From: Flagellimonas sp. 389
GTDB taxonomy: Bacteria; Bacteroidota; Bacteroidia; Flavobacteriales; Flavobacteriaceae
Direction: 5' to 3'
Length of the DNA stretch: 64,000 nt
Assembly: GCF_018449435.1 (NCBI RefSeq)
Contig: NZ_JAHCMU010000007.1
Span: 1 to 64,000 of the forward strand
The translations under genes and the position numbers were made by a program. The notes below the pieces were generated by a model. It was given only the letters and a program-made list of their open reading frames with translations. It was not told the origin of the DNA and ran no database searches. Position 1 is the stretch's first letter; every line of letters begins with the position of its first letter. This document shows positions 20,731 to 49,619 of the stretch, piece by piece.

Positions 20731-20736
20731 AACTGA

Positions 20737-24266: not shown

Positions 24267-24378
24267 TGTTATCTAAAGGTTAAAAAAAAGCCTTATTTGA
24301 AATAAAATGTTAAAATTTCAAGATTTTAAAATTTTATCATCTTTTAAATTATCAAGAACTGATTTTTATCATCTTTTT

Positions 24379-24732: not shown

Positions 24733-24737
24733 ACGTC

Positions 24738-30367: not shown

Positions 30368-31255
30368 TTAGAATCTAAGTTTTTCATCTTTATCCCAAAG
30401 TCCCCAATAGGCTCCAACGTCACCTTCGGCACCCACCTTCCATGATTCATCAAAAGAAGAGAAATAAAATATCTCGATATCATCTTCCAAAGCCCACTTT
30501 TGGGTATTCATAAAGTACTTGAGCGCATTTTCATGCGATGGGAATGCACCTTCAAGATTGGTACCATGGCTTGGCCAACCTGTTTCTGAAATAATAATCT
30601 TTTTTCCATTGGCAACTTTTACTACCCTCTGGTACATGTCTTTCATATACAGTAGCGAATAATCCATATCACAACCTTCCCAAAATGGATAACAATTGGC
30701 TAATATAATATCGCAGGCTTCTGTGATTCTTTCACGTTCGGTAAACTCATAATAAGCATCCACATAACCTACGGGCACATTGGGAACTGCTTGTTTTACT
30801 TGCGACATAAAAGCCAGTAGTTCATCCTCGGTTAAATCGCCCCGAAGCATAACTTCGTTACCGACGGCAGCAATGTCTACGTGACCTTCTTTGGCCAATT
30901 CAATAAGGTTTTCAACCTCTTGCTTATTAATTTTGGGGTCATCGCCCAACCATGCTCCAACCATAGTTTTTATACCATATTCCTTTGCTATACGTGGAAT
31001 GGCCTCATTACCTTCGGTACATGAAAAAGAACGAATCCATTTAGTATAAGGTTTAATGATTTCCATTCTTCTGCGTATCTGGTCTTCTGTAATCTGGTCA
31101 CCAGGTTTTTGTCCTTCCACATAGGGACTAAAGCACAGTCCGTGCATACCATCTTCTAAAACACTTCTGCATAGGCTTTCGAGTTCGGAGGTGGTTTTAT
31201 CAGCATAATCCATGGCAGCTAGTGCCAAAAACTTCTCTTTTCTAGATGATGACAT
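30368..31255 (-). CDS. Glycoside hydrolase family 17, intracellular type
   Basis: TIM-barrel beta-1,3-glucanase-like enzyme of 295 aa. Acid/base Glu134 in AAVGNEVM and nucleophile Glu224 in IISETGWPS are both present. No signal peptide, so it would act in the cytoplasm on short glucans, unlike the lipoprotein GH17 at 35 kb. It is the last gene of the glucan locus, preceded by a good AAAGGAAC ribosome site. The family also has transglycosylases, so trimming or remodelling of imported laminari-oligosaccharides are both possible. Confidence 0.87.
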   Translation of the reverse strand: MSSSRKEKFLALAAMDYADKTTSELESLCRSVLEDGMHGLCFSPYVEGQKPGDQITEDQIRRRMEIIKPYTKWIRSFSCTEGNEAIPRIAKEYGIKTMVGAWLGDDPKINKQEVENLIELAKEGHVDIAAVGNEVMLRGDLTEDELLAFMSQVKQAVPNVPVGYVDAYYEFTERERITEACDIILANCYPFWEGCDMDYSLLYMKDMYQRVVKVANGKKIIISETGWPSHGTNLEGAFPSHENALKYFMNTQKWALEDDIEIFYFSSFDESWKVGAEGDVGAYWGLWDKDEKLRF

Positions 31256-32095: not shown

Positions 32096-33526
32096 TTATA
32101 ACACTCCTCTTCTTTCTTCCAATTGAGCTTTAATATCTTTTGCTCTTTCTTCGGATAGGCTGTATTTCCACATAATCCAAATAGCCAAAGCTGCGGTTAC
32201 CACGGGTATGATGATATCGGCAATTCTTAATTTTGTCAAAGTATCTACTGTCTGCGTGGCTGCGTTACCATCAAATCCTATTACCTTTAATACCAAGCCC
32301 CCTAAAACTAGCGCCAATCCTTGACCAAGCTTTACAACCCACCAGTATAATGCACCGAAAGTACCCTCTTTCCTTGGCATTCCATTAACGAGTTCGTCTA
32401 AATCACAAACATCTGCGGTCATACTCATCATTAAAGTGAATAAACTACCTAAACCAAATGACATTAAAGGTATTGGAACAAAAGAAAGCCAAATATTATC
32501 TGGAGTAAAAGCCCACCATTTCATAGCATATCCAACAATGGAAAGAGCTGTTGAAACAATAAAAGCTTTCTTTTTACCCCATTTTTCAGCCATTTTTGAC
32601 ACAATTGGAATCACTAAAAATGCTGAAACAAGTGCTCCAATGGAACTGAACCAGGCTGGCCATGTCGAAGTGGCTTCATAACTTCCGTTAAAAATGTAAA
32701 AAACGAAAATGAAGAAACTAAAAGACGCAACAATCTGGTAACCATTAAAAACCAAAAAAGTAGCGCCACATAATTTCATGAAAGGTTTATTCTTTATAGC
32801 CTCTTTTATACTGATCAATAAATCTTTTAAGTTGCTAAATATTGAGGTAAACGTTAGTTTTTTCCTATTCCCCATGTGAGAAGCATCAATACCCCTACAA
32901 AAAATAGCAGGTAAAAGGCCAAGTAGCAGACAGGCTACCCCAACATAAATTGCCATGGTTCTTACACCTTCTGCTTGATTACTAAAAATATCGGGATCGG
33001 CAATGATTACCCAAAACCAGGGTACGATCACCCAAGCCAAAAGACCTACTGTTTGCGAAAACGCCATTAAACGTGTCCGTTCGTTATAATCGGAAGTCAT
33101 TTCGTAGCCTAGGCCCACCAAAGGTGTTGCAAACATGGTATTTCCAATAAGGAAAACCATGGACATAATTAGAAAGTACCAAAAGTTATAGTCTGAAGAA
33201 TTGTTTTCATCAAGTTGCCAAAGCAAGACAAATGTAAAGGCACTCAGAATACCTCCAACCAAAATATAGGGTCTCCTTCTTCCCCATTTTGAACTGGTAT
33301 TGTCCGAAATGAATCCCATGATGGGATCTGTAATCGCATCGAAAAATCTGGGCAGTCCACCTAAAAGTCCTGCCAAAAATGGGTCCATTCCAAATGCGGT
33401 CAGCAAAAAGAACATGAAAAAACCCAAGGCTCCTGGATATAGGTTCAAAACCAAATGACCTGCTCCAAAGGCGGCTTTTTGTCCTAATGGGACCAAATCT
33501 TTTTTAGCAGTTTTTACATTAGACAT
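32096..33526 (-). CDS. GPH-family (MelB-like) sugar:cation symporter
   Basis: Inner-membrane transporter of 476 aa with 12 helices, glycoside-pentoside-hexuronide type. Marks: FDAITDPIMGFISDNTSSKWGRRRPYI (about 62-88) covers the family's cation-site aspartates and the following basic loop, and GYEMTSDYNERTRLM is the second conserved cytoplasmic segment. It follows GH30 by 12 bp. In a beta-glucan locus the likely cargo is glucose or a laminari/gentio-oligosaccharide released by GH3, GH17 and GH30. A broken relative of its C-terminus survives 0.7 kb downstream. Confidence 0.88.
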   Translation of the reverse strand: MSNVKTAKKDLVPLGQKAAFGAGHLVLNLYPGALGFFMFFLLTAFGMDPFLAGLLGGLPRFFDAITDPIMGFISDNTSSKWGRRRPYILVGGILSAFTFVLLWQLDENNSSDYNFWYFLIMSMVFLIGNTMFATPLVGLGYEMTSDYNERTRLMAFSQTVGLLAWVIVPWFWVIIADPDIFSNQAEGVRTMAIYVGVACLLLGLLPAIFCRGIDASHMGNRKKLTFTSIFSNLKDLLISIKEAIKNKPFMKLCGATFLVFNGYQIVASFSFFIFVFYIFNGSYEATSTWPAWFSSIGALVSAFLVIPIVSKMAEKWGKKKAFIVSTALSIVGYAMKWWAFTPDNIWLSFVPIPLMSFGLGSLFTLMMSMTADVCDLDELVNGMPRKEGTFGALYWWVVKLGQGLALVLGGLVLKVIGFDGNAATQTVDTLTKLRIADIIIPVVTAALAIWIMWKYSLSEERAKDIKAQLEERRGVL

Positions 33527-33538: not shown

Positions 33539-35050
33539 TTAGTTAGTATTAGTTGATTCATCAACAGAAATTACCAAGGTCTGCAGTGCCTGTGCACTTA
33601 TGTTGATATTGGTGATTTTTTCGCCCAGTTGAAGCATTGCGCTTTTTGGCTCATTTTCTTCATTAAAAACAACTACGATAATTTCCCCATTAGGATTCTT
33701 AGCGGCTGTAATCATTAATGAATCATCTGTTTTTTCAAATCCAATTCGTACTGCACCTGGTCTTATGTATTTGCTAAAGTGGGCAAGCGCATAATAAATA
33801 GGTGTAAAGTAGACCTCATCTTTTTCAATATCTACAATTACTGGGGCCACGCACCAGTTTTTGAACCAGTTGGGACCTCCTTGTGTATCCAAGACCATAT
33901 TCCAGTCTATCCAACCATCTACCCAATTGTTAAGACAACCAATGATATCACGGGCATAGCGGTTTACAGGTGCATATTTGGGATGTAAATGTTTTTCATG
34001 CTCAGGGGCCCAATCCCATCCCCAATCAGTAGCTTCTTTTTTCCAATACCAAGCATCGTCTTTCCATACGGGCACTTCTGCATCCACACAGGCCTCTGAT
34101 TGTATTAAATGCTTTGTGGGAGCCGCGTTATGGGCAAACTGTAACGATTCTGGAAACCAATCATAGGTACTAGCGTACCAATGTACTGCTGTACCATCAA
34201 AATATTTTGATGCAGCTTCATCTTGGAACATGACTTTTACCCATTCTTGAAGCTCCTCACCTCTATTTTGATCATATCCTAATATTTTTACCTGATGACC
34301 GTCCTCTTCCAGCTTAGGCCCTAGATGATACTTTACAAAATCGGTCATTTCTTGGGGGGTGTAATGCATACTCTCCCAATTGTTATTATTGCCCAAGGGC
34401 TCATTTTCTACGGTAAGGCCCCAAATATCAATATCCTCTAATTTGTAGGCATCGATATATTTAGAGAAAAAAAGTGCCCATGTATCGTAATATTCTGGCA
34501 ATAACTTGCCCCCACGCCAGTCTTTATTATCTTTCATCCAAGGTGGTGCTGTCCATGGGGATGCCAAAATCTTGAATCCATCCCTAGAAGCAGCCATTGC
34601 CTCTTTTATAAAGGGAATGATATCATCCCTATCCTCTTCAATTGAGAAATGGTTTAGCTCCATATCACCTTCGACCGGGGCATAGGAATAATTGCTCAAA
34701 GAGAAATCACACGAATTTATATGCGTTCTGGTCAAAGAATACCGTGCTCCTTCGTCACCAAAATAGGCTTCTATTATTTTCTCGCGATTCTCCTTGCTCA
34801 AATTGTTCAACAAATACGCCGATGCCTCCGTAAAAGAACCTCCAAAACCGGTAATGGTCTGAAACTTTTGATCTGGTAATATCTCTATTTTTGATTCGAT
34901 ACCGGGAGAAGAAAAGTTGCTGATTTTACTTAGCCTATTTCCATTTGCCGAGGTTTCGAATACTTCGACTTCCAATTTGTTATCTACGTTACACGCATTG
35001 AGTAGTATAGCCAATGTGATACTAAAATTAAATATGTTAAACTTTTTCAT
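33539..35050 (-). CDS. Glycoside hydrolase family 30, lipoprotein (beta-1,6-glucanase type)
   Basis: TIM-barrel plus side beta-domain enzyme of 503 aa. I start it at 35050, giving a proper lipoprotein signal (LLNAC, Cys20) and a one-base gap to the GH17 stop; the in-frame ATG at 35098 adds 16 residues without signal character. GH30 marks: GFGGSFTEASAY (about 68-79), SPWTAPPWMKDN, acid/base Glu217 in TVENEPLG and nucleophile Glu319 in IQSEACVD. In laminarin loci GH30 enzymes remove beta-1,6-linked glucose branches, which fits the neighbours. Glucosylceramidase is the other GH30 activity and is unlikely here. Confidence 0.9.
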   Translation of the reverse strand: MKKFNIFNFSITLAILLNACNVDNKLEVEVFETSANGNRLSKISNFSSPGIESKIEILPDQKFQTITGFGGSFTEASAYLLNNLSKENREKIIEAYFGDEGARYSLTRTHINSCDFSLSNYSYAPVEGDMELNHFSIEEDRDDIIPFIKEAMAASRDGFKILASPWTAPPWMKDNKDWRGGKLLPEYYDTWALFFSKYIDAYKLEDIDIWGLTVENEPLGNNNNWESMHYTPQEMTDFVKYHLGPKLEEDGHQVKILGYDQNRGEELQEWVKVMFQDEAASKYFDGTAVHWYASTYDWFPESLQFAHNAAPTKHLIQSEACVDAEVPVWKDDAWYWKKEATDWGWDWAPEHEKHLHPKYAPVNRYARDIIGCLNNWVDGWIDWNMVLDTQGGPNWFKNWCVAPVIVDIEKDEVYFTPIYYALAHFSKYIRPGAVRIGFEKTDDSLMITAAKNPNGEIIVVVFNEENEPKSAMLQLGEKITNINISAQALQTLVISVDESTNTN

Positions 35051-35051
35051 G

Positions 35052-36350
35052 TTAGTGGGCAACTGCCTGTTCTTTCTTGGTTGGAGGGACAAGAACATCC
35101 TGCATCAATGCTTCTTTGTCTCCATCATATGTTTTGGTGATTGGGTTTCCATTTCTGGTCAAACCTTCAAAAGTTCCTTTATCGACCATATCCCATAAGG
35201 CATATTTTGCTTGGCCTTCGATAGTAAAAAGACCAAAATGATTTTCGGATCCACTAGCGTTTGCGGCGTCCTTCCACTTTTCATTGAAAGCTTCAAAATA
35301 AAAGCAGGAAATACCATTAGCATTTGTCCAATCACGTATTTGATGGTAATACATGGCTTCTTTGTATTCGTCGGTAGCTTTTGAACCTTCAGGGCCATAA
35401 TGACCGTTCGATACTGTTGCCCACCCTGTTTCACCAATATGTATCGGTTTGTCAACACCCAAGCTTTTCATATAATTTGAGACAGCATCATACTGTGAAA
35501 CGGCAAATGCTTTGGCTCGAACCATAGCCGAGTCGATTTTTTGGATATCCGAAAGTTGCTCTTCCGCTTCGGGGACGCCCCAAAACTCAGGATTGTAATG
35601 TGAGTTGTGATAGGGATAGGTATGCATTGAGATATAGTCTACGGCTTTGATGAGTTTTTCAAGGTCTTCGGTATGGTAGCTATCATCTCCCCCACCCCAT
35701 GAAGAATAATCATCGGAGCTTGTAATCCACAAATCTTTGCGCAGTTCTCCTTTTTCCTTTAATTCCTGAAGATGGTTCACCCATTTTAGAATGACGGACG
35801 GTTGTACGTAATAGCTCTCGGCCCATTTGACCATGGATTCATTACCAACTGCAATAATCTTTACAATGTCCGGGTATTGGTTTGCAAGAGCCACAGCTCT
35901 AGCAATTTCACCTTCATTTTGTTCACTTTCTACATTGTGGTCGGGAGTTTCTCCGGTCCACGCATTTTTACAATCTATCCATGCACCCAGCATTACATAC
36001 ATTTCAAAATTGGAATTTTCCTTTTTTAGTTCTTGTATTGCTTTTAACAGGTTGGATGCCTGTTGTAACTGGACATTGTACGTACGCAAAATTTTGATGC
36101 CCATTGCGGAGAGAATCTTCATATCTTCTTTTAGTTCGGCAATGGTAGGCTGAACATCCCGTGTATCTGCCTTATAACCACCATAGGATATTGCCAAGTA
36201 GTCTGGGTTACCTAAAATGTCTTTAGCTATCACTTCTTTTTCTATTTGAGGTTTGTTGTCTTCTACTTTGGTTGTCTTTTCTTTACATGAATAGCTTACT
36301 GTCAGCACTAGTGCAGCAACTATTGGTCTTATCATTCCTTGTATACTCAT
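35052..36350 (-). CDS. Glycoside hydrolase family 17 lipoprotein
   Basis: Beta-1,3-glucanase-type TIM barrel, 432 aa. Lipobox region TVSYSC, Cys22, so membrane-anchored. Acid/base Glu171 in IAVGNESM and nucleophile Glu307 in HIGETGWAT. Compared with the smaller GH17 at 30.4 kb it has longer loops (WIDCKNAWTGETPDHN and SSWGGGDDSYH), which may shape a binding cleft. Its stop lies one base from the GH30 start, so translation of the two is probably coupled. Role: chain cleavage or transglycosylation of laminarin fragments outside the cytoplasm. Confidence 0.9.
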   Translation of the reverse strand: MSIQGMIRPIVAALVLTVSYSCKEKTTKVEDNKPQIEKEVIAKDILGNPDYLAISYGGYKADTRDVQPTIAELKEDMKILSAMGIKILRTYNVQLQQASNLLKAIQELKKENSNFEMYVMLGAWIDCKNAWTGETPDHNVESEQNEGEIARAVALANQYPDIVKIIAVGNESMVKWAESYYVQPSVILKWVNHLQELKEKGELRKDLWITSSDDYSSWGGGDDSYHTEDLEKLIKAVDYISMHTYPYHNSHYNPEFWGVPEAEEQLSDIQKIDSAMVRAKAFAVSQYDAVSNYMKSLGVDKPIHIGETGWATVSNGHYGPEGSKATDEYKEAMYYHQIRDWTNANGISCFYFEAFNEKWKDAANASGSENHFGLFTIEGQAKYALWDMVDKGTFEGLTRNGNPITKTYDGDKEALMQDVLVPPTKKEQAVAH

Positions 36351-36397: not shown

Positions 36398-38200
36398 TTA
36401 ATACCTCAGTCCAAATCCATATGGATATAGCGGAGTGATTGTTTTGTCCCAAAAATTAGGTCCATATTTTCCTTTATAGTCTTCGACCGATTTTGGCCAT
36501 GAGTGCGGTAATGTTCCTTTAAAGTTGTAATCTCCAAAAAGCACTTCCGCAACACCTCCTCCTTCGGACCCAAGTAACCATGCAGCAATAAATGCTTCTG
36601 ATTGTTCTATTTGTTGTGTTGTTACCAAGGGTCGACCCGAAATCAATATCACTATAGTTTTCACGCCCATATTGGCATAAGTGTTCACGTAGTTTCGGTG
36701 ACTTTCGGTCAGTGTTAATTGATACGCATCTATTTCGCCGCCTATATCCCCAAAAGACTCGGCATAAGGTGTTTCACCAATTACTATAATGGCAACATCA
36801 GCATCATTATGGTTTCCCGATGCATCTATATCGTAAACTACTGTTCCTTTAGTTATTTTTTCAATTCCTTCGAGAATAGTGGTTGCTCCTTTATAATTTT
36901 CTGTGGAGCCCTGCCAGTTTATTGTCCATCCTCCAGACTGTAATCCAGCATTATTGGCATGCTCCCCTACAACTACAATTTTTTTCGTTTTTTTATCAAG
37001 TGGGAGTATATTGTCGTTGTTTTTAAGCAATACCAATGATTCCCTTACCGCTTGTCGTGCAACATCCCGATGCTCTTGAATTCCAATTTTTTCGATTAAC
37101 GTAGCATCTGGAAAGGGGTTTTCAAAAAGACCCAATCTATATTTTTGACGCAATATGCGCCTTACCGCATCGTCAATACGTTCTTGTGGCACATCACCGC
37201 TTTGCACACCATTTTTTAAGCCTTCAAGGTACATTTCAAAATCACCTTCCACGGCCATTACTACATCTACCCCAGCATTGATAATGTCGTTCTCCCCAAA
37301 TCGGGAATAGCCTTTCCAGTCCGAAACCATAATACCATCAAAGCCCATCTTTCCCTTTAGGATATCTGTAATGAGTTCTTTGTGGGCATGCATTGGCCTG
37401 CCCGATAACGAATTAAACGATGCCATCACAGAACCAACACCTTCATTAACCGCAATCTTATAAGGGGGCAATAATCGTTCTATTACTTCGTCCATGTTTA
37501 AAGAGGTATCGCCACCTTCAAAACCATAGTCCGTGGCACCATCTCCAATAAAGTGTTTTGCCGTTGCCATTACCGTTCGCTTATCGGATAGCTTACCTTG
37601 AAGTCCTTTTACTGAAGCTTTAGCCAATTTTGCCGTCAGTTCTGTATTCTCAGAAAATGCTTCATACACTCTGCCCCATTTTTCATTGTAGGGTATGGCC
37701 ACACAGGGTGAAAAAACCCATGTAAATCCAGTAGCTTGTGCTTCCAACGCAGTAATTTGGGCTGCACGTTCTACCAGTTCTGCATTTCGGGTAGCTCCCA
37801 AACCAATGTTGTGCGGGAATATAGTAGCACCTTCAAAAGTGTTTTGTCCATGAATGGCATCTACGCCGAAAAACATCGGGATTCCCAAACGGGTCGACAA
37901 TGCCTTTTTCTGTAGTTCTGTAAACTTTTCTTGCCATTCCATAGCTGTTTCTCCAGGTAGCGGACCTTGTGTATGAATTATGGAGCCAATGAACTTTGAA
38001 GCGATATCTTCTTCAGAAATATCATCAAAGTGCCGCACTTGTGTCATTTGCCCTATTTTTTCATCTAAGGTCATCCGCGTCAAGAGTGAGTCAATTTTTT
38101 GTTCTATGATAAGACCTGTATTGGTTTCAGGGTTCATCTTTTGGTTTTTGCAAGACAAAAATGACAAAGCCACCACAAAGCAAAGCATGGAATTGGTCAT
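36398..38200 (-). CDS. Glycoside hydrolase family 3 beta-glucosidase, lipoprotein
   Basis: Beta-glucosidase of 600 aa. Lipobox FLSC, Cys17. The N-terminal GH3 barrel (about 30-370) has KHFIGDG (215-221) and nucleophile Asp294 in GIMVSDWKGY. The C-terminal alpha/beta sandwich (about 385-600) has VVGEHANNAGLQSGGWTINW and a Glu-containing loop around GDIGGEIDAY. The arrangement is that of exo-beta-1,3/1,4-glucan glucohydrolases. It would release glucose from oligosaccharides in the periplasm. A long hairpin lies between this gene and the binding protein upstream, so expression may be uncoupled from the first half of the locus. Confidence 0.92.
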   Translation of the reverse strand: MTNSMLCFVVALSFLSCKNQKMNPETNTGLIIEQKIDSLLTRMTLDEKIGQMTQVRHFDDISEEDIASKFIGSIIHTQGPLPGETAMEWQEKFTELQKKALSTRLGIPMFFGVDAIHGQNTFEGATIFPHNIGLGATRNAELVERAAQITALEAQATGFTWVFSPCVAIPYNEKWGRVYEAFSENTELTAKLAKASVKGLQGKLSDKRTVMATAKHFIGDGATDYGFEGGDTSLNMDEVIERLLPPYKIAVNEGVGSVMASFNSLSGRPMHAHKELITDILKGKMGFDGIMVSDWKGYSRFGENDIINAGVDVVMAVEGDFEMYLEGLKNGVQSGDVPQERIDDAVRRILRQKYRLGLFENPFPDATLIEKIGIQEHRDVARQAVRESLVLLKNNDNILPLDKKTKKIVVVGEHANNAGLQSGGWTINWQGSTENYKGATTILEGIEKITKGTVVYDIDASGNHNDADVAIIVIGETPYAESFGDIGGEIDAYQLTLTESHRNYVNTYANMGVKTIVILISGRPLVTTQQIEQSEAFIAAWLLGSEGGGVAEVLFGDYNFKGTLPHSWPKSVEDYKGKYGPNFWDKTITPLYPYGFGLRY

Positions 38201-38353: not shown

Positions 38354-40720
38354 CTAGTCTATTCTTATGTTGTCGATATAGAAAACCCCGTCTTCTGTAG
38401 TCAATTCGCCATCGCCTATACTAACAGGATTATCTGGCTTTATAACCAATTGATTTGCTTCAAAATTAGGTGGAATTCCAGTAAAAACAACTTCCAGTTC
38501 AACCCATTCATTGGCCGCTGCTGCAACCACTGTAACTTCACCCGGAAGTCCTATACCAGGAGCATTAGGATTATTATTTACTCCAAAACGATAAGAAACA
38601 TTTGCTCTATCAGAATATACTAAGACTTTGAGGGTTGTCGAAGCTAAATCGCCAATTACATCTACGTTAGGAAATGCATTTTGCACTCCAGCAAACCTAG
38701 ATGTACCAATTGCTTTATTAATTCTTAAAACATTTGCGGAGGTATTTAAGCCTGTGGCAGAAGGGTTTGCTGCTAACTCTACTGAAATAGAACCATCATT
38801 TGTAAATGTCCCTAAAAATGTTTCACAAGCTTCAAAAGTAGCTGGTAACGATAAAGCATCAGTAGGAGTATCAGTACAACCGCCTCCTGTACTACCACCA
38901 CCATTGTCTGTGTAGAAAAATACGTTGTCCACAAAGATATTTGCCGTCACCCCATCACCTAGAACATCAAAAATGATTTGGTTGATAGTTGGGTCGTCAG
39001 GCAGTGGACCTTCAGGACCGGCCGAGGGTACCAAATCTGTAATGGCCACATCGATGGTATTCCATTCACCACCTGTCAAATTCACCTCTACATCCTCTCT
39101 GGAAGTAGGAGTAGTAAAGGAAATGAGACCGGCCCTGAACGAAACATCCTCTGCCACCCAAATATCCATACTGAAGTTGGTCCTTGAGTCAAAACCTGCA
39201 TCATTTTGTATTCCAACAAAATCAGTATTATCGTACCTCCATACGTCGTCGCCGGCAACCTGTATCTCTGAGAACGTAGCTCCGTCACCGTTTCCAAAGG
39301 CCCTGGTATTCGTGCCCGCTACATTGGTATAAGCATTGCTGAACACCGAGGTCACATCTGCCGCATTTTGGGTCGGTGTTGGTGCGGCCATTGTTGGTTC
39401 GGTGGCCACGACAGTAGCAATATCAAGTACAATATCATCAAAGTAATATGTTCCATCTGCGGTGATAGCGCTATCCATTTCATCATTATCTGGCTTTATG
39501 ACCAATTGGTTATATGCTGTTGGTCCACCTGGTAAATTTGTAAAAGTGACCTCAACTTCTGTCCATTCGTTAGCGTTTGGAACGGTAATAAAGACAGGAG
39601 CAGGATTTCCTGTTGGAGGATCTGTCTGTGGATCTAAAGCCAACTCAAATCTGAACACTACATTTGCTTTCGTTGAATAGATTTTTGCTTTAAATACATT
39701 TGTAGTTGTTAAATCAAAATTATTTTCAAATGTATTTTGGATTCCTGCAAAGAAATCTGCACCAGCAGCCTTATCCACTTGCAATACAAAATCTGAAGTA
39801 TTGATACCTGTTTTAAATGGATTTTCTACAAGTTCAGAAGTTAGTCCGCTTCCAAAGTTAGCATCGGAAAGAAAAGTTTCGCAACCTTCAAAATCCAATG
39901 GAAGTGAAGTAGCAGCCACAAGTGTATCTGAGCATCCAGCAGTTTCTCCACCGTCTCCTCCTTCAACCAAGGATACATTGTCTATCACAACGGTTCCAAC
40001 AGCAGCTCCCAAGTCAAATAACACTCTGCTGTCAGCTCCACCAAATCCTGTAGCCGACAATTCAAGTGTAAAGGTTTGTGTATCCGTTGTTAAATCAACC
40101 GTTCTCGTATCATTGGTAAAGGGGTCTACATTCAGACCAATTCCAGCGATTATGGTTCTAACCCTATCCGACGAAGCATCAAAAGTCAAAATATAATTGG
40201 TTCCTTCAGTAAGATCAAGTACCTGACTCAAGTTTACATTAAAGGCATCGCCTGCAGTTTCCACATTAGCAAAATTGAAGCTATTTCCACCTTCGGTTTG
40301 TACATTAGCGGCATTACCGCTCCAACCTTCAGACCCATTTTCGAAATCACCATTGGTCAAAAGTCCACTATCAAACGGTGGCGGTGGTTCAGGTAAATTA
40401 ATGGTTAATTCATCCTCAAAGACATCTGATGCTCCCGCCGTATTCGAAGCGGTCAGTTTTACGGTATACGTACCACTTACATAAGTTTTGACAGGATTAA
40501 TTTCAGAGGAGGTGGTTCCATCCCCAAAATCCCATGCATAGGTCTGTGCCTCTTCTGAAATATTGATAAAGGTAACTATACCCGCATCTTCATCCAGGGT
40601 AAAAGTGAAGCTTGAGATAACCTCTGGTAATGTACCTTCATCGTCATCATCGCATCCAAAAAAGGATATTGCAAGAGTAAAAAGCACCAAGTACTTTGCT
40701 TTGTTTAGTAATTCTTTCAT
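38354..40720 (-). CDS. Modular glycan-binding lipoprotein (PKD, CBM-like modules)
   Basis: Lipoprotein of 788 aa (FFGC, Cys23, followed by DDDD). Domain order: PKD about 35-110 (WDFGDG), CBM4/9-like jelly roll about 118-252 (LLTNGDFENGSEGWSG), repeat A about 262-433, module B about 440-607, repeat A' about 615-788. A and A' share the course LPxxFExCETFL ... NQLVIKPDN ... FDDI/IDNI, so they come from an internal duplication. Module B has a relative at the C-terminus of the 473-aa lipoprotein at 41.6 kb. No catalytic residues. Probably captures laminarin at the surface; the ligand is inferred from neighbours. Confidence 0.82.
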   Translation of the reverse strand: MKELLNKAKYLVLFTLAISFFGCDDDDEGTLPEVISSFTFTLDEDAGIVTFINISEEAQTYAWDFGDGTTSSEINPVKTYVSGTYTVKLTASNTAGASDVFEDELTINLPEPPPPFDSGLLTNGDFENGSEGWSGNAANVQTEGGNSFNFANVETAGDAFNVNLSQVLDLTEGTNYILTFDASSDRVRTIIAGIGLNVDPFTNDTRTVDLTTDTQTFTLELSATGFGGADSRVLFDLGAAVGTVVIDNVSLVEGGDGGETAGCSDTLVAATSLPLDFEGCETFLSDANFGSGLTSELVENPFKTGINTSDFVLQVDKAAGADFFAGIQNTFENNFDLTTTNVFKAKIYSTKANVVFRFELALDPQTDPPTGNPAPVFITVPNANEWTEVEVTFTNLPGGPTAYNQLVIKPDNDEMDSAITADGTYYFDDIVLDIATVVATEPTMAAPTPTQNAADVTSVFSNAYTNVAGTNTRAFGNGDGATFSEIQVAGDDVWRYDNTDFVGIQNDAGFDSRTNFSMDIWVAEDVSFRAGLISFTTPTSREDVEVNLTGGEWNTIDVAITDLVPSAGPEGPLPDDPTINQIIFDVLGDGVTANIFVDNVFFYTDNGGGSTGGGCTDTPTDALSLPATFEACETFLGTFTNDGSISVELAANPSATGLNTSANVLRINKAIGTSRFAGVQNAFPNVDVIGDLASTTLKVLVYSDRANVSYRFGVNNNPNAPGIGLPGEVTVVAAAANEWVELEVVFTGIPPNFEANQLVIKPDNPVSIGDGELTTEDGVFYIDNIRID

Positions 40721-40746: not shown

Positions 40747-41634
40747 TTATTGTTTGTATACGCGCACGTAGTCCACGATCATAGTCTGTGGAAACTGAGT
40801 TTCAGCATTTGGGGATCCAACAAAGGTCCCACCTACTGCAAGATTCATTAAAATGAAGAAGGGTTTATCAAATACCCACACTCCTTCACCATCTGTTTCT
40901 TCATCCACATCTTCAGGAGTAATTTGATTGTAAAGCACATCATCAACATAGTAATTGATAAAATCCGGACCCCATTCAATTCCGAAAGTGTGGAAACCTG
41001 TATCAAAGCGATCGTTTTCCAATGTAAATTCCTTAGAAATAGCATCACCTCCATTGTAGCCCGGACCATGTACACTTCCAATAAGGATTGAAGGTTCCTG
41101 ACCGCGATATTCCATGATATCAATCTCACCAGCACCTGGCCACGGATTTTCATCAATATCTGCACCCAGCATCCAGAATGCAGGCCATATCCCCTGCCCA
41201 AAAGGCAGTCGGATCCTGGCTTCAAAGCGACCGTATTGCTGCTCAAATTTGTCTTTGGTAATCAATCGTGCTGATGTATACTGAGAACCTTCAAAAGATT
41301 CCTCACGAGCGGTAATCAACAATACCCCGTTTTCAACCCGAACATTGTCAGATCGGTCGGTGTAGTATTGCAACTCTTGGTTTCCCCAACCGTCGCCACC
41401 GGGTCCATTTCCTATATCGAAGCTCCAAAGTTGGTCATTTGGTGCTCCTTCCGTATCAAAATTTTCGTCTAAAACTAAATTGGTAAATGTAGCCACTGTC
41501 TGTGTTTCATCTGTTTCACAACCGGATATAACGCTCATTGCAATTACCCCAAGGCATATTAGCACTGTCGATTGTATTGTTTTAATAGGTATATATTTCA
41601 TAATCATTTTTTTCGATTTTAAATGCAACATCAT
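40747..41634 (-). CDS. Glycoside hydrolase family 16 laminarinase, lipoprotein
   Basis: Endo-beta-1,3-glucanase of 295 aa. Lipobox VISGC, Cys39 counted from the first ATG. Jelly-roll fold with active-site motif E-I-D-I-M-E (Glu170 nucleophile, Asp172, Glu175 acid/base) as in bacterial laminarinases, and WPAFWMLG before it. The first ATG overlaps the upstream stop as ATGA, suggesting coupled translation; ATGs at codons 10 and 12 would give a more usual signal length, so the start is uncertain. It is the main chain-cutting enzyme of the locus. No attached binding module, unlike many laminarinases; binding is left to the two neighbouring lipoproteins. Confidence 0.93.
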   Translation of the reverse strand: MMLHLKSKKMIMKYIPIKTIQSTVLICLGVIAMSVISGCETDETQTVATFTNLVLDENFDTEGAPNDQLWSFDIGNGPGGDGWGNQELQYYTDRSDNVRVENGVLLITAREESFEGSQYTSARLITKDKFEQQYGRFEARIRLPFGQGIWPAFWMLGADIDENPWPGAGEIDIMEYRGQEPSILIGSVHGPGYNGGDAISKEFTLENDRFDTGFHTFGIEWGPDFINYYVDDVLYNQITPEDVDEETDGEGVWVFDKPFFILMNLAVGGTFVGSPNAETQFPQTMIVDYVRVYKQ

Positions 41635-43052
41635 TCCGTGAAAAAGTAAATGTTATCGAATATGAAGTTTGGTCCTCCTGCTAAGATGAGTGCTCCAAGA
41701 TTGTTTCTTTGAGCAGCTAAATTTCCGTCCAGAGGAATTTCAATTGAGGTCCATTGTCCAGGTGTCAACCCTTCTATCAAGAATCTTCGGTCAACATCAT
41801 CCCCATCGGGAAGTCCTGTAGTAGTATTTGTTTCCAATACTTGGTTGGCACCGACATCCCTAATCTGTACGTCCACAGCTGTGGATTCATCAAATGGATA
41901 TACATCAATATGAAGTGTTGTACGGCTAGTACCGTCCAAGGTATTACTGAATACGATTCCTGTAAAGTTATTGTTGGTATATACCAATGCATCCTCATCG
42001 TCGTTTGAAAGGAGCTGAAAGTTAGTTGTAGACCCCCCAAAATTTGGCTCAAAGATGCTTTCAACCGCATTAGCATATTCATTACTGAAGATAGAACTCA
42101 CATTTTCTGCCAATTCCATAGGGAGTGGGGCAGTTGGTAAAACACCGTTGGAAGCAATATCCAAAGAGCCCGATGCCCGAACATTGGCCAATTGCGCAGT
42201 AATGGAAGTATTACCTGCCCCTACTACTACAATTTCGCCCGATTCATTAACTATTGCAACTGAACTATCAGACGAAGAAAAATCGAAATATGCCGGAGCC
42301 GCAGAAACCGTTTGATTTATACCAGAGGATAGGTTAAATGTTTGACTGAGTCCTGTAATCACGAACTCAATACCGTTAACAACCGGAGTAGAAATATCTT
42401 GTCCAAAAAATATAGTTGGACTTGGCTGGGCTATAGTTCCAAGTTTTTCAAAACGTAGTTCATCAATCCAAAACGTATACCCAAAACCATTGGTGGTTTG
42501 TGTTCCTGCCGAGAAAAAAAACATTCCCCTTTCCTGTATCAATTTTGACGGATCTGGAATAGGAATGATAACTTTTCTCCAATCCGTAGATAAGCGTATG
42601 TTCTGGGCAATAACTGCAAACTTATTTTCCTCAAAATCAGTTCCAAAACCTACTTCCCCAATGGTGGCGGTAATGGAGCCTTTTACATAAAAGGTCAAGG
42701 CATCAAATCCGGTAAGATCTCTACCATCACCTCGATCCAGGAAAATACCTCCAATAAATCCTCCATCTGGGTCATCTGGAGCGGGTACATCAATTCGAAT
42801 AGAAGATGACCCTTCAAAAGCCACGTTATCATCAGTACCAAAGCCTTCGGGATTAGCACCTTCATTTGGATCAAAAGAATCAAAGAATTCATCCGTAAGT
42901 CCTACAGGAGCATCTGTAAATATATCCCCGTTTGACGAGAATGTTGCAAACTGTACATCATCTGAAAAGTCTCTTTCACAACTTGTAAAAACAGCAATGC
43001 CCAAGCTAAAAAGAACTATAAAACGTAAGTGTATATTTCTAATATTTTTCAT
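41631..43052 (-). CDS. Modular glycan-binding lipoprotein
   Basis: Lipoprotein of 473 aa (FTSC, Cys25). The N-terminal beta-sandwich at about 35-205 resembles CBM-type folds (SSSIRIDVPAPDD, LTGFDALTFYVKGS, WIDELRFEKLG). A Big2-like domain lies at about 215-305 (VNESGEIVVVGAGNTSITAQ). The C-terminal module at about 310-473 is related to module B of the 788-aa protein. No catalytic motif. It lies between the glycosidase-barrel fusion and GH16, where a SusE/SGBP gene would normally follow SusD. Capture of beta-glucan is inferred. Confidence 0.78.
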   Translation of the reverse strand: MKNIRNIHLRFIVLFSLGIAVFTSCERDFSDDVQFATFSSNGDIFTDAPVGLTDEFFDSFDPNEGANPEGFGTDDNVAFEGSSSIRIDVPAPDDPDGGFIGGIFLDRGDGRDLTGFDALTFYVKGSITATIGEVGFGTDFEENKFAVIAQNIRLSTDWRKVIIPIPDPSKLIQERGMFFFSAGTQTTNGFGYTFWIDELRFEKLGTIAQPSPTIFFGQDISTPVVNGIEFVITGLSQTFNLSSGINQTVSAAPAYFDFSSSDSSVAIVNESGEIVVVGAGNTSITAQLANVRASGSLDIASNGVLPTAPLPMELAENVSSIFSNEYANAVESIFEPNFGGSTTNFQLLSNDDEDALVYTNNNFTGIVFSNTLDGTSRTTLHIDVYPFDESTAVDVQIRDVGANQVLETNTTTGLPDGDDVDRRFLIEGLTPGQWTSIEIPLDGNLAAQRNNLGALILAGGPNFIFDNIYFFTE

Positions 43053-43064: not shown

Positions 43065-46000
43065 TTATTTACCAATGTTGATGTGTACATATGTCATAAT
43101 CTCCCACTCGTTACCATTACCAAATCCAACTGGACTAATTATAGGTTCTTGTGAAAAAGTGTTGGGCGGTACCGCGTTTGGCAAATAACGTGGTGAAAAC
43201 TCATTTAAGGATCTCCATGTACCACGAATTCCTATTTGTGTGCTTGGTAAAATAAACCAGTCAGGCTTACCAAGAGTTGTAGAGATATCCAACATCAATT
43301 GTACTGGGTACGTTAAGTTAAAATCTCGATGGTAATCAAATGGTCCCCAATCGTTAATTTTTTGGGTATACTGTACTTTCCAGTTGTTATAAATCATTCT
43401 TACATCTCCACCAAAACGCTTTATCAATCGTTCACTATCTCCATTAGCTTGCCCGTTGCCATAGTAGAAATTTCCAATTAGACCAAAATCCGAACCAAGT
43501 TTGGATACCATTCTGGAATGGACTTCCCATAAATCTTCAGCGGGAACCGAATTTGGGAAAGCAAAGAAGGACCTGTCGGCGTTGAAACCGATATATGAAT
43601 CAACGGTCGTAGGAAGGTGACGATATACAAACCCAAGATTCATTGCGAATTTGGCATCCTCTGATCTGTCATTGTCCCACTCGTACATCCAAGTACCCGG
43701 GGTAGGGTCGAAAGTCAAGAGAATCTCACCGGCAGTGGTCTCTCTGTTGCTTCGAACGGAAAAGGGATCATCAAGATTGTTTCTTAACCTACCAGGGCCT
43801 TGCACATCTTGCGGCATGGCCTCTACCAATGGTTTTTGCCACATGAAATTGGGAGCTATCTGAAAATTTCCTGTGGCTATGGTAAATCCAGAAAATACAC
43901 TGGTTACATTACCACTTCCCGTATCCCTTAATTTCCAACCGGTAAAAGTCATAGTTTGGTCAGCACCACCATTGGCAATTAAACCCATAGCTGCTGCTTG
44001 CCCGTACCAATTAAATTTTCCGCCTTCATAGGTAAGTTTAGCTTTACCGCCCCAGTTATCACTGGCTTGAATCCTATCTTCAAAAACAACATAGTTTCCA
44101 GGTGTACCCCTAACATCTTGGAATGAGGTTCCATTCAAAGGGCTTCCAGCCCAAATACCCCCAAGATGGACCCCAAATTTGCCGAACTCCCTTTCAATGG
44201 CCAATGTGGCTCTTTCGGTCGGCCAAAAGGGGATTACACCACTTCGTACTTGATTTGCATTCAAGACCCGACGTCCACTTTCATCAAAAACCAGATTGGT
44301 TTCAAAGTCTCTATGGTAAATACCGGTAACATCAAATTTTCCAATATGCTTTTTGTACTTGAAAAGCATGGTTGGATTTGCTCCCCACCATAATTGAGGA
44401 CCAATAGCGGCTTTCAATCCTTTTAAAGGGCCCTTGCCGTCAATTTCCATTCCCAATATTTCACCATTGTAAATATCTAGGTTAGGGCCATAGTTGGCTT
44501 CTGGATACAATCCGAAAAAGTCACCTTCATAACCCCAATGATAATGACCTGTTCTAAAGAAACCTCTTAGATCAAATTCTTTGGCATTCCATTCAAACTC
44601 TGCTTGATATACCCGAATTCTATTTACATCCGAAACAATTACATCTCCTTGGTCAGTACTTACATCAATTGGACGGGAATTATTCTCATAAAAAATCTCA
44701 TTGATTGGGTTTTGCGCCACATTACCAACAACATTCATATTTACCTCTGCTCTCATGTTAGGTGCAGGGTTTCCTTCTACTCCAATAAAATATGACTGCA
44801 TGTGATCGAATCCTAACTGATTTGGAAAGGTGTTAGGGTCGTCCGGGTCAGGAGTATCCGGTGTCGTAATTAAACTACCTCCTGTACTGAAGGTTGAGAA
44901 CTTTGCTTGAAGGTTGCTGATACGAAGCAGATTACTTTGCTCTCCATTTAATGCAGCTTTATCACCCCGTGCCTTAAGCACAGCATCCATTAGCTGGATG
45001 TTGTTGAAGTGGTTTGTTATAAAATCCTGATTTACTCCCTCTTCATAAGGATTTAACTGATGTGCGTCTTTTAGTGCGTAGTATGCTGCACGTGGATACA
45101 ATTCGTAGAGTCCCCTTGGGTTGGTCGCACCTTTGGCACAAATCCCAAACCATTCTTCGTTCATATTGTTGGCACCTGGAGATGCTAAATCCCTAGAATA
45201 CCCGCCATTGGACCACGAAGCATTGTTGTCATGCACATCTGCATTTTCTCGATCATCAAAGCCAAACTTCCACCACCCATCGCTAAATTGAAAAGTAAAT
45301 CCACCTAAGGAGTTTCCGGCTTTTCCAATTCCTGCAGCATTCTCATAGATTTCTTTCCAGTTCTCGACCATATAATAGGCCTGGGAATATTGGTCTTCCT
45401 TATTTTCGATGGCATTAAAGGCGTCTGCCCCAAACTCCGTGAACATAACAGGTTTGTTCAATTTCTCTTTTACCACTTGAAACATATCACCAAAAGAAGC
45501 TCCACGATAGGTGTTGGTTCCATAGATGTCCACATCTTTACATTCTTCGGCAACGATATCTATAAAGAGTACGTCCCCATTGCAAATGGCTACCGGATGG
45601 GATGCATCCATGGCTTTCATCTTTTTTGCAGCCTCATTCATTAATCGGTACATAGGTCTTCCGCGGCTTTCCCCTATAAAATTGATTCTTCCTTCATCAT
45701 CTGGAAAGTCTTCGGTTTCCGCTCCTGCCCAGAACAGCCCATAGTTGTTTTCATTACCAAGCAAGTACAGCAAAAGTCCAGGAGTGTCCTTGTACCCATT
45801 GACCAACTCTTCCATTTCTGTCATTAAAAACTCCATGGTCGTAGGGTCGTCATAAATTGTGACGGGAGTCCAAACTCCGTTCAGCGTCAACCCATAACGT
45901 CCAAAAGAGTGGTTGAGCATAGTATAAATACCGTAATTTTCATAGATGTACTTAATCCATTTTGCAGGAACGCCCGTGTATTGTCGAATCACGTTTACGT

Positions 46001-46256
46001 TCATGTTCTTGAGAAGTGACATCTCAGTGTCGAGTCCAGCTTTAATTACATCATCTGGTTTTTTCCAAAATGCTGCGTTCACTGTGTTCGTACCAATTGG
46101 GATGTAATCCCAATTCATACCATTAATCATGAAGTCCTCTCCATTGACCACCAGTTTCATCCCCTCTTCGTTACTTACGACGGAAACCTTGTCTGCTTGC
46201 GCGTACAATCCCACCGTACATAAAAAGAGTAGTAATCTCAGTAAATTGTTTTTCAT
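43065..46256 (-). CDS. Glycosidase (clan GH-A-like) fused to an outer-membrane beta-barrel
   Basis: Protein of 1063 aa. Signal peptide to about 20. Residues 22-415 form a GH2/GH5-like TIM barrel: LVVNGEDFMINGMNWD opens it, LGNENNYG supplies acid/base Glu169 and MFTEFGAD nucleophile Glu274. A helical link follows (about 416-450). Residues about 455-1063 are a run of amphipathic strands rich in Trp, Tyr and Gly, separated by short turns and long loops, ending YVHINIGK: a porin-like barrel with no TonB plug. It is first in the glucan row, where SusC would usually be. I infer an enzyme held at, or feeding, its own pore. The two-part reading is strong; the transport role is a hypothesis. Confidence 0.75.
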   Translation of the reverse strand: MKNNLLRLLLFLCTVGLYAQADKVSVVSNEEGMKLVVNGEDFMINGMNWDYIPIGTNTVNAAFWKKPDDVIKAGLDTEMSLLKNMNVNVIRQYTGVPAKWIKYIYENYGIYTMLNHSFGRYGLTLNGVWTPVTIYDDPTTMEFLMTEMEELVNGYKDTPGLLLYLLGNENNYGLFWAGAETEDFPDDEGRINFIGESRGRPMYRLMNEAAKKMKAMDASHPVAICNGDVLFIDIVAEECKDVDIYGTNTYRGASFGDMFQVVKEKLNKPVMFTEFGADAFNAIENKEDQYSQAYYMVENWKEIYENAAGIGKAGNSLGGFTFQFSDGWWKFGFDDRENADVHDNNASWSNGGYSRDLASPGANNMNEEWFGICAKGATNPRGLYELYPRAAYYALKDAHQLNPYEEGVNQDFITNHFNNIQLMDAVLKARGDKAALNGEQSNLLRISNLQAKFSTFSTGGSLITTPDTPDPDDPNTFPNQLGFDHMQSYFIGVEGNPAPNMRAEVNMNVVGNVAQNPINEIFYENNSRPIDVSTDQGDVIVSDVNRIRVYQAEFEWNAKEFDLRGFFRTGHYHWGYEGDFFGLYPEANYGPNLDIYNGEILGMEIDGKGPLKGLKAAIGPQLWWGANPTMLFKYKKHIGKFDVTGIYHRDFETNLVFDESGRRVLNANQVRSGVIPFWPTERATLAIEREFGKFGVHLGGIWAGSPLNGTSFQDVRGTPGNYVVFEDRIQASDNWGGKAKLTYEGGKFNWYGQAAAMGLIANGGADQTMTFTGWKLRDTGSGNVTSVFSGFTIATGNFQIAPNFMWQKPLVEAMPQDVQGPGRLRNNLDDPFSVRSNRETTAGEILLTFDPTPGTWMYEWDNDRSEDAKFAMNLGFVYRHLPTTVDSYIGFNADRSFFAFPNSVPAEDLWEVHSRMVSKLGSDFGLIGNFYYGNGQANGDSERLIKRFGGDVRMIYNNWKVQYTQKINDWGPFDYHRDFNLTYPVQLMLDISTTLGKPDWFILPSTQIGIRGTWRSLNEFSPRYLPNAVPPNTFSQEPIISPVGFGNGNEWEIMTYVHINIGK

Positions 46257-46802: not shown

Positions 46803-49619
46803 TTAAAGTTTAAGAATATAATTGACCAGATTTGCATCATGGTCCAAGTTCATTTTTTTCCGAAGCCTGTATCTTTTAATTTCGACACTACGTGCTGATA
46901 TGTTAAGAAGTGGTGCTATTTCCTTTGATGACAGATTCAATCTTAGATAGGCGCATAGGCGTATATCATTTGGGGAAAGGTTAGGGTGTGATTTTTTAAG
47001 TTTCTTCAAAAACTTGCGATCGGCATTGTTAAATGCTTCTTTAAAAAGTTCCCAATCATCATTTTGATTTAGACTTTTATCAATAATAGTAACGATAGGC
47101 CTAACCGATTCTTTGTTTTCAACACTGGATACAAGCTGTTCTTTCACCTTGGACAATAATTCGTTCTTTCTTATAATACTTAATGTGGAAGCGGCGAGCT
47201 CGTTACTCTTACTCCTAAATTCTTCTTTGAGTTGCTCATTTTTAATCTTGATGATTTCCTTTTCATTTTGGGCTCTTTCCAATGCCATTTGTCGCTGATT
47301 TTTTTCAATCAGTTTGCGTTGCTTATTATGATAATATCTTCGATAAAGGCTGTGGATAAATATCGATGCTAAAACAAATGCCACTACATAGATAGCAAGC
47401 ATAGTACGCGATATATACCAAGGTCTTTTAATTTGAAAAGAATACGTAGCCGTGTTGCTGGAGACCGTATTCCCTATTTTGGCCCTAACCTTGAAAGTGT
47501 ATTCGCCATATGGAAGGTTTTCAAAACTAATGGCCGCGTCTTTTTTCCACGAACTCCAATCTGGATACATACCCAATAACTGGTATTGGTATTCCGATTT
47601 TAAATATTTTTTATATTCTGGAGCGTAATAAGCTATTTCAAGATTGTTTTCATAACTCTCAAAATCCCCTTCCCTATTCTTGTCCAATAGGCTATTCTGT
47701 TTCGTACGGTCGTTTTTTCCAGCATTTCGAACCGTCGCAATTTGTACTGAAAAATCTTGTTTTGGGAAAGCGTCGATATTAACCGTAAAATATCCAGAAC
47801 TGGTACCAAACAAATACTTTTTATTTTCGTTCAGTGCAGTAACGTTTTCATATCCTACAATATCATTTCTAGTATCTATGGTCATAGGAACAGATTTAAT
47901 AATTGGTTTTGACGCCAGATTACTTTCTGAAATATATTTGACCCCAGATTTGGAAAATATCCAAAGAAAACCATTCTTTTCATCAACAGTCATTTTACCC
48001 GATATGTAATCTCCATCTGAGATGGCAAGGCTTAGCAAACTATCCTTTACAAAGCTATTTTTGTCTTTATCATATCGTAAAACCCCTTCTTCAAAACAGT
48101 ATAATAAGTCACTACGATACTTCTTAATTCCAGAGTTGGAACCTTTGACAACCGTATCGATGTCCACATTCAATGCCTTGGTTAAATCAGCATCTATCTT
48201 TATTGTAAAGAGCCCTTTGTACTCATGGTTAACAAATATCTTTTTATCAAAAAATTCAAAATATCTAGAAGAGTGCTCAAAACCAGAAATCTTGTTCTTG
48301 AGTTGCCAAGAACCATTGGTGTTCTCGAGAAGGTACAAGCCATCGTAATTGCCCTGTAGAAGAACCTCTGGTCGCCCCTCCATAGGTTTAATGTTCCAAG
48401 TACCCTGTACATTCGCTATTTTTGAAGCCTTGTCGTTTTCTATTAAAAATGTACCTCTATGATGTCCGCAAAACAATTCATTAGCTATAACATTCAATGA
48501 CCAGACTTGGCCTTGCGTTCCCGGGATACGTTCAAAATCCGTAGTCCCGCCCATTCTTTTGTAAAAAAGCCCCTGATTGGTTCCAAGATATAAGTTTCCA
48601 TGGTGCAAGACAGAAGCATATACACTGCCAACTACTCCTCTACTATCGTGATAGACATTGATAGGTGATGTTAGATTTATAAAGCTTATACCATTGTCAA
48701 GCCCCAACCAAAGATTACCATCCATGTCCTCAAATAGGGATAGGATAGTATTGTTACGGAGCCCTTTGAGTTGGTCAATATGATTCAACAGCTTTCCATC
48801 TTTATCCAAATGCAATACCCCATGTGCAATCGTACCAAGGGCGTACGTTCCGTTCTTGAGCTTTAAGGCACTATAGACACTTACTTTAGAGAGTAAGGTG
48901 TCCGCGGCTATTTCCCATGGTGTAGTTATTCCTTTTTCAACTTTAAAAAAACCTTTATTCCGGGTAAGTACCAATAAGCCATCCTGATATTGAAAAATAT
49001 TGATTACTTCATTTTCCAAAAAAAGTTCACTATCGTATCTGAGGGATTTAGAATCGTTTTCTATTCGATACAGCCCCTCATGCAACGTTTGGAAATATAG
49101 ATTTTGATTGAAATCAAACACCTTCGGCAACGTGGTTTCAGATTCAATGACGTTGACCGAATCATCCTGAAGATCATAAATGTAGAAGTGATTAAGAGAT
49201 TGAAATACCATTAACCGATCAATGCTTAAAATATTCCAGAATTCTTCGTCCTGAACCAAATCCTGTTTTATTCTTTTTGATAATGACGTATACTGGAGCT
49301 TGCCAAGCATGTTTTTTTCCCAATAGCCAAACTCCATGTAACAACCTGTATAAATACGCTCTCCAACAACTTTCACTGATCGTATTATGGTCTCGTTCGG
49401 TGATGGGAACAATGTCCATTTAGCACCATTGAATTCTAAAAGTCCCTTGCTGTTAGCGACATAGATAAGTTTATCTTTTGATTGCGATATAGCCCAATTT
49501 TGATTTTCGGCCTTATACTCGGAGGGTAAAAAGTTTTGGACAGGTGGTAACTCTTGTGCCGAGATGATTATCCCAACAAAAAAGAGCATTGGTGACACTA
49601 TTTTGCAAAATATATTCAC
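46803..49619 (-). CDS. Membrane-spanning sensor-regulator (propeller, Y_Y_Y, LuxR-type HTH)
   Basis: One-protein signal transducer of 938 aa. Signal peptide to about 20, then a periplasmic beta-propeller of two-component-regulator repeats (about 25-640), a Y_Y_Y domain (about 650-732, NLPYGEYTFKVRAK), one membrane helix (736-757), a cytoplasmic coiled coil (about 765-830) and a C-terminal GerE/LuxR-type helix-turn-helix (882-938, SSKEIAPLLNISARSVEIKR). No histidine kinase or receiver domain is present, so the membrane protein itself would bind DNA. It stands upstream of the glucan row in the same direction and probably activates it on sensing a glucan fragment. Target and ligand are inferred. 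Confidence 0.87.
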   Translation of the reverse strand: MNIFCKIVSPMLFFVGIIISAQELPPVQNFLPSEYKAENQNWAISQSKDKLIYVANSKGLLEFNGAKWTLFPSPNETIIRSVKVVGERIYTGCYMEFGYWEKNMLGKLQYTSLSKRIKQDLVQDEEFWNILSIDRLMVFQSLNHFYIYDLQDDSVNVIESETTLPKVFDFNQNLYFQTLHEGLYRIENDSKSLRYDSELFLENEVINIFQYQDGLLVLTRNKGFFKVEKGITTPWEIAADTLLSKVSVYSALKLKNGTYALGTIAHGVLHLDKDGKLLNHIDQLKGLRNNTILSLFEDMDGNLWLGLDNGISFINLTSPINVYHDSRGVVGSVYASVLHHGNLYLGTNQGLFYKRMGGTTDFERIPGTQGQVWSLNVIANELFCGHHRGTFLIENDKASKIANVQGTWNIKPMEGRPEVLLQGNYDGLYLLENTNGSWQLKNKISGFEHSSRYFEFFDKKIFVNHEYKGLFTIKIDADLTKALNVDIDTVVKGSNSGIKKYRSDLLYCFEEGVLRYDKDKNSFVKDSLLSLAISDGDYISGKMTVDEKNGFLWIFSKSGVKYISESNLASKPIIKSVPMTIDTRNDIVGYENVTALNENKKYLFGTSSGYFTVNIDAFPKQDFSVQIATVRNAGKNDRTKQNSLLDKNREGDFESYENNLEIAYYAPEYKKYLKSEYQYQLLGMYPDWSSWKKDAAISFENLPYGEYTFKVRAKIGNTVSSNTATYSFQIKRPWYISRTMLAIYVVAFVLASIFIHSLYRRYYHNKQRKLIEKNQRQMALERAQNEKEIIKIKNEQLKEEFRSKSNELAASTLSIIRKNELLSKVKEQLVSSVENKESVRPIVTIIDKSLNQNDDWELFKEAFNNADRKFLKKLKKSHPNLSPNDIRLCAYLRLNLSSKEIAPLLNISARSVEIKRYRLRKKMNLDHDANLVNYILKL

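Follow-up and report, generated by a model that had tools for sequence, protein, structure and literature searches.

A single protein encoded in the genome of Flagellimonas sp. 389 joins a glycosidase to a plug-less outer-membrane beta-barrel and stands at the start of a conserved beta-glucan gene row. Its gene occupies positions 43065-46256 (−) of the window, that is, of the whole 64,000-nucleotide stretch analysed here (contig NZ_JAHCMU010000007.1), as a single intact open frame of 1063 amino acids (aa). In order, the chain consists of a signal peptide (residues 1-20; 46197..46256, −), in which no lipobox was found by eye or by pattern, a clan GH-A TIM barrel, a linker and a predicted plug-less transmembrane beta-barrel. 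An earlier note had proposed both the fusion and its place at the head of a beta-glucan row; both proposals were borne out, the fusion by Pfam, structure models and fold matches. With moderate confidence, we favour the reading that the protein is a periplasmic GH158-like beta-glucanase carrying, in the same chain, its own wide plug-less pore for beta-glucan fragments.

Results

The N-terminal part resembles GH158 glucanases

Pfam, profile and model searches identified residues 21-427 (44976..46196, −) as a GH158-like clan GH-A TIM barrel. The sole Pfam model above cut-off was PF02836, the GH2 TIM barrel (28 bits, E 1.5e-6). In a profile search of the PDB, GH158 enzymes ranked top (6pal, E 1.5e-6; 9oro, E 2e-4), followed by GH2 at E 3e-4; the single aligned stretches to GH158 are weak taken alone. 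Foldseek comparison of the full-length model returned six best chains that were all GH158 enzymes. The motifs GNE and TEFG of the protein aligned with GNE and TEWG of BuGH158 (6pal), marking Glu169 (45750..45752, −) as the predicted acid/base and Glu274 (45435..45437, −) as the predicted nucleophile. These two residues and Asn168 were invariant in all 88 homologous sequences. In BuGH158 the catalytic residues are E137 and E220 (PMC7157763). The protein therefore contains the clan GH-A hydrolase with both carboxylates that had been proposed from its sequence, in the form expected of GH158.

Membership in GH2 was rejected, since no N-terminal sugar-binding or immunoglobulin (Ig)-like domain matched and PF02836 was the only GH2 model that did. 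The Ig-like C-terminal domain of solved GH158 members was absent from the models as well, and the beta-barrel stands in its place. By sequence comparison, the enzyme part is nearest to the GH158 endo-beta-1,3-glucanases. Its distant relatives pointed the same way. Proteins of about 340 aa and about 25% identity stand free beside GH149, GH17 and major facilitator superfamily (MFS) genes in three loci (L175-L177). Distant relatives matched GH2 TIM-barrel and partly GH72 glucanosyltransferase models, and one had GH158 as its best PDB match (E 1.9e-10). These neighbours and matches support a role of the enzyme part in beta-1,3-glucan breakdown.

The C-terminal part forms a predicted 24-strand barrel

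Residues 428-1063 matched no Pfam or NCBIfam family, and the barrel part used as a profile found no match among PDB sequences. A Pfam scan of 73 homologues gave nine single hits to five unrelated families, in at most six members and with a best E of 0.017; no plug, TonB-receptor or autotransporter family was matched in the Pfam scan of the fusion. Structure prediction was more informative. The full-length model (60 sequences) reached a predicted local distance difference test score (pLDDT) of 73.7 and a predicted template modelling score (pTM) of 0.53, and the barrel modelled alone (71 sequences) formed 24 long strands with pLDDT 81.8 and pTM 0.79. The strands span residues 444-1062 (43071..44927, −), behind a linker of residues 428-443 (44928..44975, −) that includes the end of a short helix in the full-length model.

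The strands of the full-length model showed the features of an outer-membrane beta-barrel, namely an even-numbered amphipathic meander with long outer loops and short turns. The linkers that follow odd strands measured 7-36 residues (median 28.5); behind even strands the length was 2-8 residues, the median being 2, apart from one linker of 20. Hydrophobic alternation, scored with raised values for Trp and Tyr, averaged 2.50, compared with 1.38 ± 0.21 (maximum 2.06) in 1000 within-strand shuffles. The best 50 of 799 PDB fold matches were all outer-membrane barrels by title; the matches listed included TonB-dependent receptors (BtuB, ZnuD), porins, AlgE, the PapC usher, LptD and the Mtr complex. 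With TM-scores of 0.21-0.39, none of the solved barrels closely resembles that of the fusion. The model, the fold matches and the lack of a plug or TonB-receptor family match thus uphold the proposed plug-less outer-membrane barrel, with 24 strands in the barrel-only model instead of the 14 to 18 that had been expected.

Three predicted outer loops stood out in conservation: the aromatic-rich loop 3 (residues 570-598; 44463..44549, −; mean 0.94), loop 7 (residues 757-783; 43908..43988, −; 0.87) and loop 11 (residues 971-981; 43314..43346, −; 0.97). The corresponding value was 0.74 for the strands and 0.56-0.76 for the remaining long outer loops. Because loops 3, 7 and 11 exceed the strands in conservation and the other long loops do not, the pattern fits a fixed binding site within an otherwise variable surface.

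In outer-membrane barrels generally, long loops face the outside and short turns face the periplasm. Strand 1 of the fusion begins on the short-turn side and the number of strands is even; under this rule, strand parity and loop lengths place both barrel ends in the periplasm. The enzyme would then be periplasmic as well, unless it were threaded through the pore. Most likely, judging from the model, it works beneath its own pore rather than at the surface. In two close relatives without the barrel (L179 and L181) the signal peptide is retained, and inspection by eye showed neither a lipobox nor a sorting tail. Barrel topology and these plain signal peptides together disfavour the cutting at the cell surface that the earlier note had suggested, without disproving it.

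The fusion is widespread and conserved

Searches of genome sets showed that the fusion is common and reaches across Bacteroidota, including a gut Bacteroides. In a family set of 299 genomes, the source genome included, 95 matched, 55 of them over nearly all 1063 residues in one frame. Two copies at contig ends (G062, G147), one split by a frame shift (G061, L183) and one broken (G103, L184) were left out of this whole-fusion count. A further copy, G048, is also cut by a contig end, three genomes (G176, G199, G258) have the enzyme without the barrel, and the other matches were distant or weak and covered mostly the enzyme part. The barrel profile matched 35 of 395 genomes in a phylum set. Of these, 32 had the whole fusion, their frames measuring 1046 aa or more, one match reached position 578 and two were partial. 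In a class set searched with E up to 1, 17 of 395 genomes had whole barrels, with frame lengths of 1041-1093 aa; three weak, short hits (E 0.004, 0.42 and 0.59) were taken as chance. The phylum and class sets overlap, and both contain the source genome. Neither of them held a stand-alone barrel or a barrel on another enzyme. Two records of a plasmid collection matched, both with whole fusions.

Of 591 stretches, 80 close loci were retained, nearly all titled Flavobacteriaceae or kin; Persicobacter and Bacteroides finegoldii were further named members. Identity to the window protein was 54-64% in distant members, with similar values for its two halves. The gene directly downstream of the fusion encoded the same lipoprotein in 97 of the 98 loci with a downstream gene (exception, L156). 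The earlier note had held that polysaccharide loci do not normally include such a fusion; in loci of this kind it proved to be a regular and conserved member.

SusC/SusD is frequently absent near the fusion

Three BLAST queries were used to locate SusC and SusD genes upstream of the fusion and on its strand. Among close loci with 8 kb or more of upstream sequence, 18 of 68 had both; of the distant loci with as much, none of 11 did (0/20 when shorter stretches were counted). Among ten further class-level loci, one (L189) held both the fusion and SusC/SusD. Since these loci contain the two systems together, the fusion is no plain substitute for SusC/SusD. The beta-glucan row of the window lacks the SusC/SusD pair that a polysaccharide utilisation locus (PUL) in the strict sense would have. 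The pair at 19129-24099 belongs to a neighbouring row (13524-29336), in which alginate-lyase-like genes were seen by eye alongside SusC and SusD.

Four relatives retained an intact enzyme without an intact barrel (G176, G258, G199 and G411); G048 (L182) was left out of this set, because its contig ends inside the gene. In G176 (L179) the protein ends after the enzyme and SusC and SusD lie upstream, and in G258 (L181) it likewise ends after the enzyme, with SusC and SusD adjoining on the other strand. G199 presents a natural domain swap, with a GH16-like domain joined to the enzyme part in the barrel's place (L180:8379-10436, −); SusC and SusD are found upstream of this gene (L180, L195). In G411 the enzyme part is intact, stops interrupt the remnant of the barrel behind it, and GH149 comes next (L207:2226-3620, +). 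A fifth copy, G522 (L208), has a frame-broken enzyme and lacks most of the barrel. No SusC/SusD was present near the last two, within the 9 kb read for G411 and the 12 kb read for G522. Loss of the barrel was thus accompanied by SusC/SusD in three of four cases, or three of five with G522 counted, a suggestive pattern in small numbers. Strict substitution was rejected as too strong, given the loci that hold both systems and the two copies that lost the barrel with no SusC/SusD in view.

GH16 occurs only once in the genome of the window, at the locus of the fusion. A laminarin SusC/SusD elsewhere in this genome was considered and rejected: the nearest SusD is just 42% identical to a laminarin-locus SusD, and its neighbours, by eye sulphatase-like, GH3-like and two alike glycosidase-like genes, make up an un-laminarin-like set.

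Gene neighbourhood

The genes that follow the fusion, all on its strand, form a beta-glucan row. Directly downstream lies a 473-aa lipoprotein (41631..43052, −), the constant partner of the fusion; its CBM30 and Big_2 hits are weak and miss the cut-off, and no Pfam model passes it. It is followed by a GH16 lipoprotein, a predicted endo-beta-glucanase (40747..41634, −); a lipoprotein with PKD and CBM4/9 domains (38354..40720, −); GH3 (36398..38200, −), where most relatives have GH149; GH17, assigned by Pfam (35052..36350, −); GH30 (33539..35098, −); an MFS_2 sugar carrier (32096..33526, −); and a second GH17 without a lipobox (30368..31255, −). Upstream of the fusion lies a regulator with propeller repeats, a Y_Y_Y domain and a LuxR-type helix-turn-helix (46803..49619, −). 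With GH16, GH17 and GH30 together with GH3, this row has the composition of a variant B laminarin PUL, a type described in PMC6298971.

Neighbours were counted in stretches of up to 10 kb per side, which miss the far ends of the loci. Among the 80 close loci the 473-aa lipoprotein was present in 78, GH16 in 76, PKD-CBM in 69, the regulator in 68, GH17 in 56, GH30 in 37 and MFS in 17; the corresponding numbers for the 20 distant loci were 19, 20, 9, 1, 11, 10 and 12. The lipoprotein is therefore about as constant as GH16, and may serve as a SusD-like lid for the barrel. An additional gene, taken as GH149 (beta-1,3-glucan phosphorylase), was found in 59 of the close loci and 17 of the distant ones; the one member tested scored 1788 bits. 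An exchange of GH3 and GH149 in laminarin PULs has been described (PMC13188888).

In B. finegoldii the fusion heads a beta-glucan-type row (L161:11867-20654, +), in which it is followed by a hypothetical protein, GH16, a fimbrillin-family protein, another hypothetical protein and GH3; no SusC/SusD is annotated within the 33 kb shown. The record is labelled a plasmid, yet bears genes for valine-tRNA ligase and rpsA. There the fusion goes under the name 'glycoside hydrolase family 2 TIM barrel-domain containing protein'; this family name conceals the barrel part. The MFS genes of L176 and L180, at 781 and 789 aa, are long enough for an MFS-GH17 fusion, and the tail of the latter appeared GH17-like by eye. 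Outside the row, at 53560-55137 (+) of the window, a lipoprotein contains repeats of 'DGKLWVIGG...NDVWYS' that by eye resemble kelch units.

Discussion

In the mechanism that we infer, for the side faced by the enzyme and its substrate as well as for the places of the lipoproteins and TonB-independent uptake through the barrel, the operon lipoproteins (the 473-aa partner, GH16 and PKD-CBM) would bind laminarin-like beta-1,3-glucan outside the cell and cut it there. The fragments would diffuse through the 24-strand barrel past the conserved aromatic loops and be shortened at its inner mouth by the enzyme attached to it, so that diffusion and trapping could keep an inward gradient without TonB. 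GH17, GH30 and GH3 would complete the degradation, and the MFS carrier would import the sugars. Passage of products through the fusion's own barrel, which the earlier note had raised, is plausible. More tentatively, and with less confidence than we place in the periplasmic enzyme with its own pore, the fusion may represent a phylum-wide TonB-free glycan uptake machine, in which a 24-strand pore, an enzyme at its inner mouth and a constant SusD-like surface lipoprotein work together, hydrolysis replaces TonB energy and the whole is exchangeable for SusC/SusD in beta-glucan loci.

Several findings weigh against the enzyme-and-pore reading. The fusion and SusC/SusD occur together in 18 of the 68 close loci and in L189, and SusC/SusD was not seen near the two decayed copies, G411 and G522; other SusD-like genes exist in the genome of the window, so a SusC/SusD coded elsewhere could serve. 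On the structural side, the pTM of the full-length model was low, strands 1 and 19 of the 24 showed almost no hydrophobic alternation, and the majority of outer loops were conserved no better than the strands.

The earlier note had also suggested that the enzyme could be displayed like an autotransporter passenger. It would then thread out through the barrel and cut glucan while held on the cell surface. The order of enzyme, short helices and barrel does resemble type Va autotransporters, and some distant enzyme relatives appear to be exported or anchored, one (L178:5461-6639, +) by a type A sorting domain of the type IX secretion system and two by a lipobox seen by eye. However, barrels of type V autotransporters have 12 strands, half the number modelled here; no autotransporter family matched, the two close enzyme-only relatives have plain signal peptides, and the strong conservation of loops 3, 7 and 11 would not be expected of a mere anchor. 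We therefore consider such display unlikely. Somewhat less likely still is a barrel that merely tethers a periplasmic enzyme to the outer membrane while a SusC/SusD coded elsewhere transports. The loci with SusC/SusD beside the fusion and the SusD-like genes elsewhere in the genome speak for it, but a 24-strand barrel far exceeds the needs of anchoring, conservation among distant members is much the same for the barrel as for the enzyme, and SusC/SusD was not seen near most copies of the fusion.

An offshoot of a TonB-dependent receptor, in which the enzyme replaced the plug and TonB still opens the barrel, would explain why BtuB and ZnuD are among the best fold matches and why the enzyme occupies the place of the plug. 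TonB-dependent transporters hold their plug in a barrel of 22 strands. With 24 strands, no plug or TonB-receptor match and TM-scores of about 0.3, we regard this origin as very improbable. The idea that the C-terminal part is a soluble array of beta-sandwiches deserves the least credence: the lack of a Pfam family above cut-off means that nothing known forces a barrel, but the barrel model, the loop pattern, the hydrophobic alternation and the best 50 fold matches speak against it.

Glycan uptake in Bacteroidota is usually described as the work of SusC/SusD. Laminarin represents a large marine carbon flux (PMC6246565), and clusters with GH149 and without susCD have been reported (PMC5827456). 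Laminarin PULs of the order GH149-GH0-GH30_1-GH17 are also known, one of them without susCD, and the GH0 gene was in the top 10% of expressed genes of one metagenome-assembled genome (PMC10108472); this GH0 may be the fusion gene. The fusion is a candidate for the missing outer-membrane step of such susCD-free beta-glucan clusters (PMC5827456, PMC10108472), and it also stands in a gut Bacteroides. Surveys that read glycan use from SusC/D expression (PMC6298971) would leave it uncounted.

The locus itself is known as a laminarin PUL. In Muricauda it has been described as such, with the gene called a GH2 beta-glycosidase, in a text that uses neither 'porin' nor 'outer membrane' (PMC13188888). 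Among the matches listed from a search of the open-licence literature, no title or beginning of an abstract described a glycosidase-barrel fusion, and we found no mention of the barrel. The locus in the window shares its type, comprising the regulator, the fusion gene, GH16, GH149 or GH3, GH17, GH30 and MFS, with the Muricauda PUL (PMC13188888) and the variant B or variant 1 PULs (PMC6298971, PMC10108472). For the enzyme part, GH158 (BuGH158, 6pal) is the nearest fold and profile match, with both glutamates aligned; GH158 enzymes carry an Ig-like domain behind their TIM barrel and lack a membrane part (PMC7157763), whereas the fusion has a beta-barrel. SusCD systems and outer-membrane utilisomes (PMC7618045) likewise combine an outer-membrane barrel with surface lipoproteins and a glycosidase, but do so in separate chains with a TonB plug and a SusD lid, in contrast to the single plug-less chain of the fusion. 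The chu_1276-1280 genes of Cytophaga hutchinsonii (PMC12016534), likened here by their description, similarly form a PUL without SusCD that includes a predicted barrel protein, a two-module surface lipoprotein and an endoglucanase; their substrate is cellulose, and no enzyme-barrel fusion is stated in the part of the report available. The MFS-GH17 fusion of Formosa (PMC6246565) is another case of a transporter joined to a laminarin enzyme, there with a helical MFS carrier instead of an outer-membrane barrel.

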